NCBI GenBank assembly: GCA_020725425.1
Contig: DYFA01000041.1
Location: 1-48,159 of the forward strand
DNA: 48,159 bases
Direction: 5' to 3'
Origin: Aneurinibacillus sp.
Lineage (GTDB): Bacteria > Bacillota > UBA5301 > DYFA01
Shown here: positions 31,411 to 38,225 of the stretch, piece after piece
How positions within the stretch are numbered: the stretch's first letter is position 1
How the letters are laid out: each line of letters opens with the position of its first letter
Program-made: the position numbers and the translations under genes
The notes under the pieces: model-generated
The model's input: the letters and a program-made list of their open reading frames with translations, nothing else
Told to the model about the DNA's origin: nothing
Databases searched by the model: none

Positions 31411-32763
31411 CTAGGGCGCCTGTCGCGCCGCTGGCAGTCTCTTCTCCTCCGGCCGGGCCAAATCCTCCGGGATGAGGTCGAGCCGGATCAGGTCGGCGTA
31501 GGTCTCCCGCGCCACCAGGAGGCGGGCCCGCCCTCCACCGACGAGGACCACCGCTGGCCGCGGCAGCCGGTTGTAGTTGCTCGCCATGGAGTAATTGTAC
31601 GCCCCGGTGGTGAAGACGGCCAGCAGGTCCCCCCGCTCGACCGGCGGCAAGGCCGCGTCCCACAGGAGCATGTCTCCGGACTCGCAGCACTTCCCGGCCA
31701 CCGAGACAACCTCGGAAGGGGCATCGGCTGCCCGGTTGGCGACTATGGCTTCGTAGACCGCCTGGTACAGTGCCACCCGGGGGTTGTCGGTCATGCCGCC
31801 GTCGACGGCCACGTAACGCCGTACGCCGGGGATGTCCTTGATCGCCCCTACCGTGTAGAGGGTCGTCCCCGCCTCGCCCACGATGGACCGCCCCGGCTCG
31901 ACGAAGATCGTCGGGCACGGCAGGCCGTGAGCTGCCGCTTCTTCCGCCACCGCCGCCCGCATCGTCCGGGCGAGCTCCTCAATAGGCGGCGGATCGTCAT
32001 CCGCCGTGTAGCGCGCCCCGAGTCCCCCGCCCAGGTCGAGGACTTCGGGCGCGTACCCGGTCGCCGCCCGGGCCTCAGCGGCGAACTCAAGCATCGCCCG
32101 CACCGCCGCCCGGTACGACTCGAGGGCCAGGATCTGCGAGCCGATGTGACAGTGATACCCGCGCAGGTCGAGATGGGAGGCGGACAGCGCCTCTTTCACC
32201 CCGGCCAGGGCCACGCCGCCGACCAGCGGAAAACCGAACTTCGAATCCGCCTGCCCGGTCTGGATGTACTCGTGGGTGTGGGCCTGAACCCCGGGAGCGA
32301 TCCGCAGAAGGACCGCCACCCGCTGCCCGCGCCGGGCGGCCAGGTCGCTCAACAGCGCCAGCTCGGAGGGGTTGTCCACCACCACCCCGCCGATGCGGGC
32401 CGCCAGCGCCTCTTCCAGTTCCGCCGGGGACTTGTTATTGCCGTTGAAGTAGATCCGCTCGGAGGGGAAACCCGCGGCCAGGGCCGTGTAGAGCTCGCCC
32501 CCGGAGACTACGTCGAGCCCCAGCCCTTCCTCGTCCACGAGCCTCGCCATGCCGGTGGTGAGGAAGGTCTTGGCGGCGTAGAGCACCATTCCGCCCGCCT
32601 CACTGGCGAAGGCCTCCCGGTAAGCCCGGCAGTTCTCCCGGATCAGCGCTTCGTCCATCACGTACAGCGGTGTCCCGAACCTTCGGGCCAGCTCGACCGT
32701 GTCGCACCCGCCGATTTCCAGGTGGTTGCGGGCGTTGATGCGCGCCGTGCCCCGTAGCCTCAT
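31411..32763 (-). CDS. lysA: diaminopimelate decarboxylase
   Basis: It makes L-lysine from meso-diaminopimelate. The 450-residue PLP enzyme (fold type III) has the cofactor lysine in LYAAKTF (K65), the HIGSQI motif, DLGGGLGARY, EPGRSIVG and a catalytic CESGDML segment. ATG start at 32763. It appears to be the first gene of the operon lysA-M50-scpA-scpB-DUF2953-ytfJ, with a promoter inside the 3' end of the preceding gene. The leader is about 72 bases, too short for a lysine riboswitch. Confidence 0.96.
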   Translation of the reverse strand: MRLRGTARINARNHLEIGGCDTVELARRFGTPLYVMDEALIRENCRAYREAFASEAGGMVLYAAKTFLTTGMARLVDEEGLGLDVVSGGELYTALAAGFPSERIYFNGNNKSPAELEEALAARIGGVVVDNPSELALLSDLAARRGQRVAVLLRIAPGVQAHTHEYIQTGQADSKFGFPLVGGVALAGVKEALSASHLDLRGYHCHIGSQILALESYRAAVRAMLEFAAEARAATGYAPEVLDLGGGLGARYTADDDPPPIEELARTMRAAVAEEAAAHGLPCPTIFVEPGRSIVGEAGTTLYTVGAIKDIPGVRRYVAVDGGMTDNPRVALYQAVYEAIVANRAADAPSEVVSVAGKCCESGDMLLWDAALPPVERGDLLAVFTTGAYNYSMASNYNRLPRPAVVLVGGGRARLLVARETYADLIRLDLIPEDLARPEEKRLPAARQAP

Positions 32764-32841: not shown

Positions 32842-32871
32842 ATCGTAGCATTAGGGGGAGGGGCGCGTCAA
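32842..32871 (-). promoter_or_regulatory. sigma-A type promoter of the lysA operon
   Basis: On the minus strand TTGACG (32866-32871) and TACGAT (32842-32847) are spaced by 18 bases. The -35 lies within the last codons of the upstream dehydratase-like gene (stop at 32851). The predicted transcript starts near 32835. Confidence 0.65.
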
Positions 32872-33948
32872 CCCTTGGCGCCCCGGTGCGCCCCGGCCGG
32901 CCAGCAGGTCGACGAATGCTTCGAGCCGCGTCTGCAGGCCCGCCTCTCCCGTGTGCTCATCCACGAACAAGGTCAGCGTCGGCAGCCCGTACTTCTCTGT
33001 CACCTCCGGCAGGACTGTCTCGGCCACAATCTCCGGCATGCAGGTGAGAGGGGCGAGCTGGACCACCCCGGCGATCCCTTCCCGGGCGAACTCCACGGAG
33101 TGGGCCACCGTCTCGAGGCCGTGTCCGCCGACGAAGTGATTCAGGTGGGGCATGGCCAGTTCCGCCAGCCGGAGACGTTCCCGGCGGACCCGGAGACGGA
33201 AAAGGTGTTCCCGGATCCAGTCCCCCAGGAAGAGGCGGCGGACCACCTGCACCCCCAGGAGGCCCAGGCGGCGCTCGGTGTGGAGGTTGACGAAGGGTTC
33301 AAGCACGGTGTAGATCTCCCCGACCACTCCCACCCGGAGAACCGGTCCCTCCCGTTTGGGCAGCGCCTCCAGCTCGGCCGCGGCCTCCGCCTGCAGCGTC
33401 TTCACTCGCCGCGGCGAGTCGGCCCTGCGGCAGGCGGTGAGGAATCGGGCAAAGGCGGCGTCCGCCTGGCCCCTCACCGCCTCGGTGGCCCGGGCGGCCT
33501 GGAGGGCCCGCTCCACCTCGTCGATCGCCAGAATCTTGGCCCACGCCAGTTGGAAAGCCTTCCAGGACCGCCGGAGGGTGAACCCTGGCAGCCACCGGCG
33601 GAGCTCCTCGAGCAGCGCCCGAAGGTGGCCCTGCGGCGGTTCCAGGACTATCATTTCAAGCCCGGACCCCGCCCCCCGCAGGACTTCCCGCTGCACCTGG
33701 GCGTAGTACCCGAACCGGCAGGGCCCGCTCCCTCCGGCCATCACCACCGCTTCGGCCCCCTGCTCCTCTGCCTCGAGGAAATTGCCGAGACCGACCTTGA
33801 GCGGCAGGCAGGCCCCTTCCGGGGCGATGCGGGTACCCAGTTCCAGCGTCCGCTGGGTGCATGGCGGAGGGACCACCACCTCCGCCCCCAGGTCCGAAAG
33901 GAGAGTCTCCAGGGGGATGTACAACGTCCCCATGTGGGGGAAGGTCAA
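32851..33948 (-). CDS. 2-hydroxyacyl-CoA dehydratase/activase-associated superfamily protein, second of a coupled pair
   Basis: The 365-residue protein starts TFPHMGTLYIPLETLL and contains EGACLPLKVG (C47), GGSGPCRFGYY (C77) and LAPLTCMPEI (C303). These match the CoA-activase-associated/2-hydroxyglutaryl-CoA dehydratase D-type superfamily, whose members hold Fe-S clusters through three cysteines per subunit. It ends with DEHTGEAGLQTRLEAF, almost identical to the neighbour's end, so the two are paralogues. The start is taken as TTG at 33948, overlapping the first gene's stop as TTGA. No ASKHA-type ATPase activator is present here. Its substrate is unknown. Confidence 0.78.
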   Translation of the reverse strand: MTFPHMGTLYIPLETLLSDLGAEVVVPPPCTQRTLELGTRIAPEGACLPLKVGLGNFLEAEEQGAEAVVMAGGSGPCRFGYYAQVQREVLRGAGSGLEMIVLEPPQGHLRALLEELRRWLPGFTLRRSWKAFQLAWAKILAIDEVERALQAARATEAVRGQADAAFARFLTACRRADSPRRVKTLQAEAAAELEALPKREGPVLRVGVVGEIYTVLEPFVNLHTERRLGLLGVQVVRRLFLGDWIREHLFRLRVRRERLRLAELAMPHLNHFVGGHGLETVAHSVEFAREGIAGVVQLAPLTCMPEIVAETVLPEVTEKYGLPTLTLFVDEHTGEAGLQTRLEAFVDLLAGRGAPGRQGLTRPSP

Positions 33949-34949
33949 CCTGGCCGTGGCGCCCTCGCCTCCCGCCGCTCTATCAGGTCGAGAAAGGCCT
34001 CGACCCGCGTCCATACACCGGCCTCGCCGGTGTGCTCATCCAGCGTGAGCAGAAGAAAGGGGACGCCCCGGCGCTCCGCAAGCCGCGCCACCAGCTCGCC
34101 CACCAGCGAGTCCGGCCCGCACCCGAACGAAGCCAGGTAGATCAGCCCCTCCACGGCCCCGCTGCTCATCAGGTAGGCGGCGGCGCCGTACACCCGCCGG
34201 CCCATCGTCCAGAAGAGCTCCTTCGGCAACTCCCGGGCCCCCGCCTCGCACTCATCGGCTGGGATGGTCTCGGCCGTTTCGACGCTCCACCCCGCCGCCA
34301 AAAGCCGCGCCAAGAGATCCAGGCTGACCTGCCGGTCGTACACGTTATAAGGATGGCCGAGAACCCCCAAGCGTCCCCGCCGGCGGGCGGCGCCGGGAAC
34401 CGGCCCTCTGTCCCCTCCGCCGGCTGCGGGGAGAAGGCCGAGCTCCGCCAACGCCACCGGGGGAAGACAGCCGCGCCCCCAGCGGGCCTCGACCGCCCGT
34501 TGCACCGCCAATCCACAGGCCAGGGCCTGTTCGGCGCGGCGACGCCGGATCCCGAGCGCCCCGGCCACCTCCGCGGCGGCCGCAGACAGCCCACCCGCCC
34601 CTCTCCGCAGGTCGACCAGCGGCGTGAGGAGAGGCACCTGCCGCCCCAGGGCGCGGCCTGCCATATCGGGCAACCCCATGAACTTCGGGCAGATGTAAGC
34701 CCGCGGCTCCACCGAAACCAGGCGCGGCACGAACACCGCCTCCGCCGACGCGGCGAGCTCGGCGCAGTGCCCGAAGAAGACCTTCACCGGAAGGCAGGCC
34801 TCCTCGACCGCCAGCTTCACCCCGGCGTCCAGCGTCGCCCGGGTGGTGGCCCGACTCACGAACGGCTCCACACCCAGGTCCTTCAGCAAGGTGAACCACA
34901 GCGGGGCATAGGTCCAGAACAGCAGCGCCTGCGGGATCCCCACCCTCAC
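33945..34949 (-). CDS. activase-associated (DUF2229-like) protein, first of a coupled pair
   Basis: The 334-residue product starts RVGIPQALLFWTYAPLW, the opening of DUF2229-like domains in large CoA-dehydratase activases, then EEACLPVKVFFGHC (C52, C62), AYICPKFMGLPD (C87) and FGCGPDS (C277), and ends DEHTGEAGVWTRVEAF. It is a stand-alone domain: the ASKHA ATPase halves of the large activases are missing. GTG start at 34949 overlaps the spoVAEA stop as GTGA. Cysteine placement suggests an Fe-S cluster, possibly shared with the second gene's product; function is not known. Confidence 0.78.
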   Translation of the reverse strand: MRVGIPQALLFWTYAPLWFTLLKDLGVEPFVSRATTRATLDAGVKLAVEEACLPVKVFFGHCAELAASAEAVFVPRLVSVEPRAYICPKFMGLPDMAGRALGRQVPLLTPLVDLRRGAGGLSAAAAEVAGALGIRRRRAEQALACGLAVQRAVEARWGRGCLPPVALAELGLLPAAGGGDRGPVPGAARRRGRLGVLGHPYNVYDRQVSLDLLARLLAAGWSVETAETIPADECEAGARELPKELFWTMGRRVYGAAAYLMSSGAVEGLIYLASFGCGPDSLVGELVARLAERRGVPFLLLTLDEHTGEAGVWTRVEAFLDLIERREARAPRPG

Positions 34950-35539
34950 GCCCTGGTCGGCCTCCCCTCCCCTTTGGCCTGCCGGCTCAAGTCGAGCACA
35001 GTCTGGACGGCCTTGGTGGTGAGGGCGGCCCCGCGGGAAGACCTGTCCCACCGGTTCATCTTCCCCGGATCCCCCAGACCGATGACCACCGGGACATCGA
35101 GCTGGTTCAGCACGTCCACTGTGTCCCCTTCCACCCGCTCGTGCCCGGCCGGCTCCGGCTGACCTTCCTTGTCCACCGGACCCTCGACCAGCCTTCCCGC
35201 GGCATCCACCGAGTGGGTCACCGGAACCCCCATCACCTTCTCCGTGTTGGACGCCACGGCGACCACCCCCAGGAGGTCGACCTCCCGGCTGCGGGCCAGG
35301 TGTTCCAGGGCCGCCTCCCCGGCGCCCTTGCGGCGCGACCCCCGGTCGTCCACCATGACCAGGACCGGATCCCGTTGGGCCTGCTTGACCAGCTCCACAA
35401 GTTCCTCGCCGGAGAGCGGAGTGGGGCTTCCGGCCGACAGGGAAATGGTGCATCCCCCGACGTTGCGGGCGGCTTGCTCCACCGCCCCCTGCGCCACGCG
35501 ATCCCCATCGGTCACAATTATCACTCTCGGCCTCCTCAC
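34946..35539 (-). CDS. spoVAEA: stage V sporulation protein AEA
   Basis: This 197-residue soluble protein begins VRRPRVIIVTDGDRVAQGAV and contains SAGSPTPLSGEELVELVKQA, VLVMVDDRGS, LLGVVAVASNT and DVPVVIGLGDPGKM, which together match the SpoVAEA family of the spoVA locus. SpoVA proteins move dipicolinic acid into the forespore and out at germination; SpoVAEA is a soluble member located on the spore inner-membrane face in Bacillus. GTG at 35539 is the likely start. It is separated from spoVAE by an inverted gene, and the dehydratase-like pair overlaps its end. Confidence 0.88.
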   Translation of the reverse strand: MRRPRVIIVTDGDRVAQGAVEQAARNVGGCTISLSAGSPTPLSGEELVELVKQAQRDPVLVMVDDRGSRRKGAGEAALEHLARSREVDLLGVVAVASNTEKVMGVPVTHSVDAAGRLVEGPVDKEGQPEPAGHERVEGDTVDVLNQLDVPVVIGLGDPGKMNRWDRSSRGAALTTKAVQTVLDLSRQAKGEGRPTRA

Positions 35540-35595
35540 GCCGGTCACCCCGACCCCTAGCGTACCCCGCCTGGCTGGGCGGTTATGTCGCCACG

Positions 35596-35624
35596 GTATA
35601 AATGGAAAGTGAACGGCCAAACTA
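35596..35624 (+). promoter_or_regulatory. possible forespore (sigma-F/sigma-G) promoter of the inverted membrane-protein gene
   Basis: GTATA (35596-35600) matches the forespore -35 GYATA, and GGCCAAACTA (35615-35624) fits the sigma-F -10 pattern GGnnAnAnTA exactly. The spacing is 14 bases to the GG, slightly short; read as sigma-G (CAAACTA) the spacing is 17. The transcript would start near 35632, giving a normal short leader before the ribosome binding site at 35648. Confidence 0.45.
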
Positions 35625-36090: not shown

Positions 36091-36441
36091 TTACCCCTTG
36101 GCCCGGGTGAGCAGGGCAAAGAGGAAGCCGAAGAAGATGGCGGCGGCGATCGCCCCACCCCCCAGCTCGAACACCCCGGCGAGGGCCCCCCAGGGCCCGA
36201 TCAGTTCCAGCTCCTTGAGCACCCCTGAGGTGAGCACGTACCCGAAGTTCGAGACGGGAACGGAGGCCCCGGCCCCGGCGAACTTGACGAGCGGCTCGTA
36301 CAGCCCCAGGCCGGTCAGGACCGATCCCAGGACTACAAAGAGGACCATGACGTGGCCCATCGTGAAGACGGTGAGATCGAAGACCAGTTGGCCGATCACA
36401 CAGATCAGGCCGCCGACCAGAAAGGCCCAAACATAGCTCAC
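36091..36441 (-). CDS. spoVAE: stage V sporulation protein AE
   Basis: This 116-residue integral membrane protein of the SpoVA channel takes part in dipicolinic acid transport. It begins with SYVWAFLVGGLICVIGQLV, the family signature, followed by segments around GHVMVLFVVLGSVLTGLGLYE and a final GGAIAAAIFFGFLFALL helix. The GTG at 36441 gives the same length as the Bacillus protein; a TTG at 36447 overlapping the spoVAD stop is an alternative. It directly follows spoVAD. Confidence 0.95.
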   Translation of the reverse strand: MSYVWAFLVGGLICVIGQLVFDLTVFTMGHVMVLFVVLGSVLTGLGLYEPLVKFAGAGASVPVSNFGYVLTSGVLKELELIGPWGALAGVFELGGGAIAAAIFFGFLFALLTRAKG

Positions 36442-36443
36442 GC

Positions 36444-37457
36444 TCAATACACCTCGATCGCTACCGCATGGCAAACGGACGGAATGGACTCGGCCTGTTG
36501 ATAGGTGAGAGGCGACAACAGCGCTCCGGTTCCGGCCAGGAGCAGCCGCCGGAGCTTCCCTTCGGCGAAGAGCTTGAACAAATGGCCAGCGAAGACCACA
36601 GCCGAACAGCCGCAGCCGCTTCCGCCGGCGTGCACGTCCTGCTGTTCCCGGTCGAAGATCAAAAGCCCGCCGTCCTGGAACTGTTGGCCCAGCTCGATGC
36701 CGTCCTTCCGCAGGATCACCCGGACCAGTTCCACCCCGACCGCCCCCAGGTCGCCAGTCATGATCAGATCATAGTCCTCGGGCCTTTTGGCGAAGTCCCG
36801 CAGGTGCTGACGGATGGTGTCGGCCGCGGCGGGAGCCATCGCCGTGCCCATGTCGTTCGGATCCTTGCTCCCCAGGTCGATCACCCGGCCCAGCGTGGCG
36901 CAGGTCACTCGCGGCCCCTTCCCTTGACTCTGCAGCAGGCACGACCCGGCGCCGGTAACGGTCCACTGGGCGGTGGGCGGCCGCTGCACCCCGAGTTCCG
37001 TGGGGAAGCGATACTGGCGCTCCGCCGTGTCGTGGTGGCTCCCCGTCACCACCAGCACCCGGTCGGCGAATCCCCCGTCGACCAGCATCGCCCCGGTCGC
37101 CAGACCCTCGGCCAGCGTCGAGCAGGCGCCGTAGAGACCGAGGAAGGGCGCCTCCACCTCGCGCAGAGCGAAGTTGGAGGAGACGATCTGATCCAAGAGA
37201 TCCCCCGCCAGGATAAAGTCCAGGTCGGTCGGCTGAAGCTGGGCCCGGTTGAGCACGTTGAAGATCGCTTCCCGGAGAAGCTTGCACTCCGTCTTCTCCC
37301 AAGTCTGCTCGCCGTAGAACGTATCCTCCAGCACGGTGTCGAACCGTTGACCCAGCGGTCCCTGGCCCTCCATGGGCCCGACGATGGAGAAGGTGTTCGT
37401 GATCACCGGAGGGGAGGTGAACTTGACCGACTGCTTGCCGATCCTCTTGACTGCCAC
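36444..37457 (-). CDS. spoVAD: stage V sporulation protein AD
   Basis: SpoVAD is the soluble, dipicolinic-acid-binding member of the SpoVA complex and has a thiolase-like fold. The 337-residue protein starts VKRIGKQSVKFTSPPVIT and contains GPMEGQGPLG, GLYGACSTLAEGLATGA and CHAVAIEVY at the end. Length agrees with the family. GTG start at 37457 with an AAGGGG site; it lies eight bases after the spoVAC stop. Confidence 0.97.
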   Translation of the reverse strand: MAVKRIGKQSVKFTSPPVITNTFSIVGPMEGQGPLGQRFDTVLEDTFYGEQTWEKTECKLLREAIFNVLNRAQLQPTDLDFILAGDLLDQIVSSNFALREVEAPFLGLYGACSTLAEGLATGAMLVDGGFADRVLVVTGSHHDTAERQYRFPTELGVQRPPTAQWTVTGAGSCLLQSQGKGPRVTCATLGRVIDLGSKDPNDMGTAMAPAAADTIRQHLRDFAKRPEDYDLIMTGDLGAVGVELVRVILRKDGIELGQQFQDGGLLIFDREQQDVHAGGSGCGCSAVVFAGHLFKLFAEGKLRRLLLAGTGALLSPLTYQQAESIPSVCHAVAIEVY

Positions 37458-37465
37458 GCCCCTTC

Positions 37466-37930
37466 TCACCCCCCGGCGATGAGGAACCGGAGGAGGCCTA
37501 CCACGATGGCGGAGGTCACCCCGTAGGTGATGACCGGCCCGGCGATTTGATACATCCGGGCGGCCATGCCCATCACGAACCCCTCCGTCTTGAACTCGAT
37601 CGCCGCCGCCACGATGGAGTTGGCGAAGCCGGTGATCGGGATGGCCGAGCCCGCGCCTCCCACCTGGCCGATCTTGTCGTACACGCCCAGCGCCGTCAGA
37701 AAAGCGCCCAGGAAAACCATGACGCCGGCCGTCGGCCCACCGGCCTTGTCCGGAGGCAGCCCCTGGGCCACGAAGAAGTTGAGAACCCCTTGACCCGCCG
37801 CGGAGATCGCCCCGCCGACCAGAAAGGCCAGGAGGGCATTGCGCAGCAGCGGCGGGCGGGGACGGTGCCGGCGGGCCAGCCTCTGGTACTCCTCCTGAGC
37901 CCGCTTCTGTTGCTCCTTGGTCTGAGCCAC
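37466..37930 (-). CDS. spoVAC: stage V sporulation protein AC
   Basis: SpoVAC is the mechanosensitive membrane component of the SpoVA system. The 154-residue protein has a charged N-terminus (Gln/Lys/Glu/Arg-rich), four hydrophobic segments and the motifs GPTAGVMVFLGAFLTALGVYD and GSAIPITGFANSIVA, the latter like that of SpoVAE. GTG start at 37930 with GGAGG seven bases before it. It follows a dodecin gene by 26 bases and precedes spoVAD. Confidence 0.96.
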   Translation of the reverse strand: MAQTKEQQKRAQEEYQRLARRHRPRPPLLRNALLAFLVGGAISAAGQGVLNFFVAQGLPPDKAGGPTAGVMVFLGAFLTALGVYDKIGQVGGAGSAIPITGFANSIVAAAIEFKTEGFVMGMAARMYQIAGPVITYGVTSAIVVGLLRFLIAGG

Positions 37931-37956: not shown

Positions 37957-38163
37957 TTACGTTCCGTCGACCGCAAAGGCCACCTGGACGTCCGCCTTGT
38001 ACTCGGTGATCTTGCCGTTCTCCACGTTCGCCGTCATGTTGAGCACCTCGACGCCGGTGATGCCGTGCACGGTCTTGCTGGCCTGCGCCACCGCGCTCTC
38101 GATGGCGTCCTGCCAACTCACCGGCGATTCCCCCACCAGTTCGATCACCTTGACCACTGTCAC
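37957..38163 (-). CDS. dodecin family flavin-binding protein
   Basis: Dodecins are small dodecameric proteins that store or shield flavins or coenzyme A. The 68-residue product begins VTVVKVIELVGESP, has the helix WQDAIESAVAQASKTV and ends EYKADVQVAFAVDG, closely matching the family's beta-alpha-beta-beta plan. The GTG at 38163 is chosen because AGGAGGTGA sits at the right distance; a GTG at 38172 lies inside that site. It is placed immediately ahead of spoVAC and may be in the same transcript. Confidence 0.9.
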   Translation of the reverse strand: MTVVKVIELVGESPVSWQDAIESAVAQASKTVHGITGVEVLNMTANVENGKITEYKADVQVAFAVDGT

Positions 38164-38194: not shown

Positions 38195-38225
38195 TATTAT
38201 TCGTCGGGCAGTCGGCGCTTCATAC
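38195..38225 (-). promoter_or_regulatory. possible sigma-G promoter of the dodecin-spoVA genes
   Basis: On the minus strand GTATG (38221-38225) fits the -35 pattern GYATR, and AATAATA (38195-38201) matches the -10 CATnnTA except for the first base. The spacing is 19 rather than 18 bases. Position is right for the dodecin gene (start 38163), and the Bacillus spoVA operon is sigma-G dependent, but the match is modest. Confidence 0.35.

Follow-up and report, generated by a model that had tools for sequence, protein, structure and literature searches.

Two adjacent genes that follow spoVAEA, here called A and B, probably encode an anaerobe-specific, forespore-expressed enzyme in which an activase would use ATP to drive low-potential electrons into an Fe-S heterodimer of the two products. 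The genes lie in a window of 48,159 nucleotides (the whole stretch of DNA analyzed here) from Aneurinibacillus sp., and the pair appears to be an undescribed component of sporulation in oxygen-avoiding bacteria. Most knowledge of spores comes from aerobic Bacillus. With a conserved redox enzyme among the dipicolinic acid (DPA) channel and germination genes, anaerobe spores would have a step absent from the standard model, and a widespread family that carries no annotation beyond DUF2229 would gain a physiological context. We found no description of the pair in the open-access literature searched, and the DUF2229 family is absent from the main text of the 2012 sporulation gene survey and of two clostridial sporulation transcriptome papers. 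Cultured carriers (Moorella, Desulfotomaculum, and Heliophilum) make this reading directly testable.

In order of transcription, the gene run of the window comprises spoVS, dodecin, spoVAC, spoVAD, spoVAEB, a convergent membrane gene, spoVAEA, A, B, a lysA-type gene, a site-2 protease gene, and scpA/scpB-like genes (the protease and scpA/scpB-like genes named from their translations only). Gene A (33945-34949, minus strand) begins with GTG and encodes 334 amino acids, and gene B (32851-33948, minus strand) begins with TTG and encodes 365 amino acids. Gene A overlaps spoVAEA by 4 bp (34946-34949, GTGA) and gene B by another 4 bp (33945-33948, TTGA); the positions, lengths, and four-base overlaps assigned to both reading frames by an earlier, sequence-only reading of this DNA were correct. 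Upstream on the same minus strand, the dodecin gene heads the spoVA run (37957-38163; PF07311, E = 2e-27; putative start GTG 38163) and is followed by spoVAC (37466-37930; TIGR02838, E = 8.5e-51; putative start GTG 37930), spoVAD (36444-37454; PF07451, E = 6.5e-146; start likewise putative), and spoVAEB (36091-36474; PF03862, E = 2e-31), the last matching TIGR02839 with E = 4e-35 and 120.5 bits, below the equivalog cut-off of 131.1. A small membrane gene of the 4-TMS holin superfamily (PF04020; 35652-35993, plus strand) lies between spoVAEB and spoVAEA and parts spoVAEA-A-B from the upstream spoVA genes; a similar gene was seen at only 4 other loci of the set. The reading frame of spoVAEA spans 34946-35620 on the minus strand (PF14097, E = 7e-70), with the true start probably near 35540. 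Beyond gene B lies the lysA-type gene for a PLP decarboxylase (31411-32763, minus strand; PF02784, E = 6.6e-62), which is also found downstream of the pair in many relatives.

By profile and predicted fold, both products are members of the superfamily of benzoyl-CoA reductases (BCR), 2-hydroxyacyl-CoA dehydratases (HAD), and double-cubane proteins (DCCP). Against PF09989 (DUF2229), A scored 136.5 bits (E = 1.4e-39) and B, the weaker member, 36.8 bits (E = 4.1e-9), both above the gathering cut-off of 29.4, and an NCBIfam search with A and B returned no meaningful family. A single-sequence search of the PDB reached no further than the C-terminal portion of the fold, so profiles and structural models were needed. 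AlphaFold2 models, built as single chains from 37-sequence alignments (pLDDT of 92.7 for A and 90.0 for B), revealed the two alpha/beta-domain fold of the BCR/HAD/DCCP superfamily in both proteins. When the models were compared with the PDB by Foldseek, all 15 matches of A at E <= 0.001 were DCCP, HadC, BzdNO, or MbdON, and all 13 matches of B at the same threshold belonged to the DCCP/HadC/BzdNO/MbdON superfamily. TM-scores were moderate (about 0.45-0.57), which places the relation at the level of the superfamily. The two putative subunits are also homologous to each other by sequence (hhalign probability 100%, E = 2.7e-41), as the sequence-only reading had claimed, and the EACLP/GACLP and DEHTGEAG motifs on which it had remarked were found in both.

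Exactly three cysteines per subunit were invariant, namely, C52, C87, and C277 in 94/94 A sequences and C47, C77, and C303 in 92/92 B sequences. These six had all been listed beforehand as candidate ligands; a seventh, A C62, is not conserved across the 94 A sequences and was rejected as a cluster ligand. We compared these positions by profile with 31 HGD-D proteins, including Escherichia coli YjiM, among which C78, C108, and C335 (YjiM numbering) are the only universal cysteines. The three cysteines of A fell on YjiM C78, C108, and C335, respectively, and B C47 and C303 fell on C78 and C335; B C77 was gapped in the alignment, and its match to C108 comes from spacing (30 in both) and from its position before a predicted helix. 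In BzdO, one [4Fe-4S] cluster is bound through Cys95, Cys128, and Cys380 inside the alpha/beta cleft (PMC11971306), a triad comparable to 52/87/277 of A and 47/77/303 of B. Because each subunit has three invariant cysteines, as many as BzdO has ligands, and a double cubane needs six, the cluster content to be expected from these sequences is one [4Fe-4S] per subunit. The same homology predicts a separate cluster within the alpha/beta cleft of each subunit, so that convergence of the cysteines at the subunit interface, the geometry that the earlier reading had looked to, would not be expected.

The number of cysteines also bears on the possibility that the pair is a DCCP-like double-cubane reductase acting on small molecules. 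DCCP (7yyl, 7yzm, and 6eno) is the top structural match of A and B, and the ATP-driven delivery of electrons by an activase in the DCCP/DCCP-R system would be alike. However, an [8Fe-9S] double cubane takes six cysteines from one subunit (PMC11971306), as in BzdN with its six ligands, whereas neither A nor B has six invariant cysteines, and the extra DCCP-type cysteines of YjiM (C40, C273, and C302/C304) have no invariant counterpart in A or B. The double-cubane reading was rejected on this count, and we consider such an enzyme extremely improbable; the comparison that the earlier reading drew with double-cubane proteins, as holding a cluster through three cysteines per subunit, is not supported for the same reason. 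Its broader placement of the pair in this superfamily, with three cysteines in each protein, agrees with profile, fold, and conservation.

Could the pair instead serve amino-acid fermentation as a true 2-hydroxyacyl-CoA dehydratase? The dehydratases HadBC and HgdAB (PF06050), served by the activators HgdC and HadI, share with the A/B system the fold (HadC, 3o3m/3o3n, is among the best matches), two related subunits with three cluster cysteines each, and an HgdC-type activase with two invariant cysteines. Against PF06050, however, the pair reached only 21.0 and 23.6 bits, below the curated 28.4, and true membership was rejected on these scores. The pair also differs from the dehydratases in its spoVA context, in having no CoA-transferase, acyl-CoA gene, or other pathway gene among its identified neighbors, and in an activase that carries an extra C-terminal four-cysteine motif relative to HgdC/HadI. 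We therefore regard a fermentative dehydratase as highly improbable. DUF2229 is also found elsewhere in proteins of ~1,400 residues that contain activase-like domains; in contrast, A and B are distinct genes, the activase has a gene of its own, and the pair stands in a sporulation gene run.

The sequence-only reading had reported that no activator gene is near. This holds for the window, which contains no activase gene; elsewhere in the genome, however, there are two genes for activases of fitting type, neither of them beside the pair. One belongs to a second trio (A'-B'-activase; L005), which contig C38 carries between clpC and radA-disA; the other stands alone on contig C52 beside a ribose-phosphate pyrophosphokinase-like gene. 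At loci where the pair is linked to spoVA, the activase was found in the same gene run in 50/64 cases, usually right after B, and the 11 genomes examined that had none at the spoVA locus all encode one at another site. Because the third gene is usually present at other loci, and because those 11 genomes retain an unlinked copy, gene content indicates that the missing activator in the window is a local loss. Activases from loci of this kind belong to PF01869 and have the HgdC-type cysteines C128 and C167 in 80/80 sequences, as in an ASKHA activase with a bridging cluster. Almost all of the 80 also have the C-terminal motif C285-x2-C288-x3-C292-x18-C311 (for example, L005:6240-7244), which may bind another Fe-S cluster. 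In the activase tree, activases from the window genome's own class group together; the C52 activase may be the relocated partner of the pair, with the C38 copy equally close. With the activase usually adjacent and otherwise elsewhere in the genome, reduction of the pair by an ASKHA protein, as had been proposed, appears probable.

The link to spoVA is not a local chance. Of 300 genomes sampled from the phylum, 79 encode SpoVAEA, and in 64 of these, from about 30 families, gene A follows spoVAEA on the same strand, with adjacency and order relative to the spoVA genes conserved as in a component of the operon. Gene A comes directly next in 27 genomes, is separated by a single gap of 1.3-2.4 kb in 35, and lies at some other distance in the remaining 2. 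The gene in this gap is spoVAF in Moorella thermoacetica (PF03323, E = 2.9e-155), and the order in linked genomes, among them Orenia and Desulfotomaculum, places the pair directly after spoVAEA or after spoVAF. In genomes without spoVAEA, the trio lies behind spoVAC-AD-AEB. Among named records (some of whose genomes also occur in the sample), the trio lies behind spoVA genes in M. thermoacetica, M. mulderi, Desulfofundulus, Desulfotomaculum copahuensis, and Heliophilum, and also in Orenia, Natroniella, Pelotomaculum, and Fervidicola. Some DUF2229 match without a linked pair was found in 12/79 spoVAEA genomes; thus, linkage is not obligatory. In a tree of concatenated A and B, made by a quick search and with an arbitrary root, 14 rows that include the window genome's C38 pair formed a fully supported separate clade, apart from spoVA-linked pairs and their relocated relatives.

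The pair is also associated with spore formation across genomes. Genes of the B type (E <= 1e-30, presence read by hand from tables) occurred in 203/248 genomes with SpoVAD and in 8/52 genomes without it (Fisher P = 6e-20, uncorrected for relatedness). This comparison of spore-formers with non-spore-formers, which had been suggested as a check, together with the adjacency to spoVAEA, bears out the proposed connection of the pair with sporulation. Among the 96 genomes for which both matches were listed, 67 have gene B on the same strand no more than 9 kb downstream of SpoVAD, a lower bound, as in several of the other 29 the link to spoVAEA lies on a different contig or record. With regard to oxygen, haem-copper oxidase (COX1) matches at E < 1e-100 were present in three of the 79 SpoVAEA genomes (G140, G268, and G159), and these three had zero DUF2229 matches. 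The absence of the family from genomes with a strong haem-copper oxidase is only a trend because it comprises three cases and because weaker COX1 and cytochrome bd matches occur in some trio-bearing genomes. The window's own genome has neither the haem-copper oxidase nor the cytochrome bd family, which is consistent with an anaerobe.

Part of this gene order could be inherited inertia. Taken as the whole explanation, the pair would be an ordinary anaerobic metabolic enzyme that stands beside spoVA and is carried along by conserved gene order, and two observations suit such a passenger: lysA also stays adjacent without an obvious spore role, and the window's own genome carries a paralogous trio flanked by clpC and radA. 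The span of about 30 families and the co-occurrence with SpoVAD argue against it, as does the distribution of sigma-G-like promoters. The scan matrix follows the generally known sigma-G consensus, and its training set was limited to 12 sigma-G-like sites found before spoVAC in relatives; regions upstream of each gene were scanned with duplicates removed, and expectations were taken from dinucleotide-preserving shuffles. Sites were found upstream of 25/112 spoVA-linked A genes (2.75 expected) and of 10/35 unlinked A genes (1.25 expected; P = 8e-7). Sigma-G-like site strings were read, for example, in Anaerovirgula multivorans (L254). We observed no enrichment upstream of B (2/169 versus 4.80 expected), the activase (3/139 versus 4.00), lysA (2/61 versus 2.10), or the paralogue clade (1/14 versus 0.40). 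Sites before A are thus kept without flanking spoVA genes, which is not what simple gene-order inertia predicts, and we judge it unlikely that the pair is a mere passenger.

In Bacillus subtilis, the spoVA operon is expressed in the forespore, SpoVAC-AD-AEb form the DPA channel, and SpoVAEa and SpoVAF affect germination (PMC13059800, PMC11841064). In the window, a predicted sigma-G-like promoter (GTATG-N19-AATAATA; 38195-38225, minus strand; PWM score of 13.0) precedes the start codon of the dodecin gene by ~30 bp, and the matrix scan gave no good site just before spoVAEA-A-B (best score of 4.2). Because the good site precedes dodecin and the convergent gene intervenes, we infer, rather than read directly, forespore (sigma-G) expression of the pair at this locus.

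On the reading we prefer, that of an ATP-driven low-potential Fe-S enzyme, A and B would form a heterodimer with one three-cysteine [4Fe-4S] cluster in each subunit. A homodimeric ASKHA activase with a bridging [4Fe-4S] cluster would, by homology, hydrolyze ATP and give A/B a low-potential electron, and the A/B clusters would then act on a small molecule by a reductive or radical step. The pair would be part of the forespore (sigma-G) spoVA gene set in anaerobic spore-formers, so this step would most likely take place in the forespore or in the germinating spore core. As a weak guess, its role might be redox priming or repair by which machinery sensitive to oxygen stays usable in the spore. 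More tentatively, A/B and the activase may work with SpoVA, SpoVAEA, and SpoVAF in DPA handling or germination and may have been lost in aerobic spore-formers, which would make them invisible in B. subtilis. A different use of the same chemistry would be reduction of the aromatic DPA ring in the manner of class I benzoyl-CoA reductase, with DPA recycled at germination. The placement among DPA channel genes fits this, and members of the superfamily dearomatize rings (PMC11971306). However, the ring reducers known so far take a CoA thioester as substrate, and none of the genes identified next to the pair encodes a ligase. We know of no DPA-CoA chemistry, and we consider DPA reduction decidedly improbable.

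Several neighboring genes were noted in passing. In the window and at 66/103 spoVAC loci, a dodecin gene (flavin-binding family, PF07311) immediately precedes spoVAC in the same orientation; we found no dodecin-spoVA link in the literature searched. At L253:5365-9098, the genes just before A-B are spoIIAB-sigF-like, matching an anti-sigma-type ATPase and a sigma-70 factor, and no spoVA gene is in the flank. At L233:7012-14237, the genes that come after A-B-activase are one of the GerA family (PF03323) and two more that are germination-operon-like. On two Actinomycetota MAG contigs (L239 and L252), two NfnAB-like oxidoreductase genes come next after A-B-activase, and L239 also has ClpC on the upstream side.
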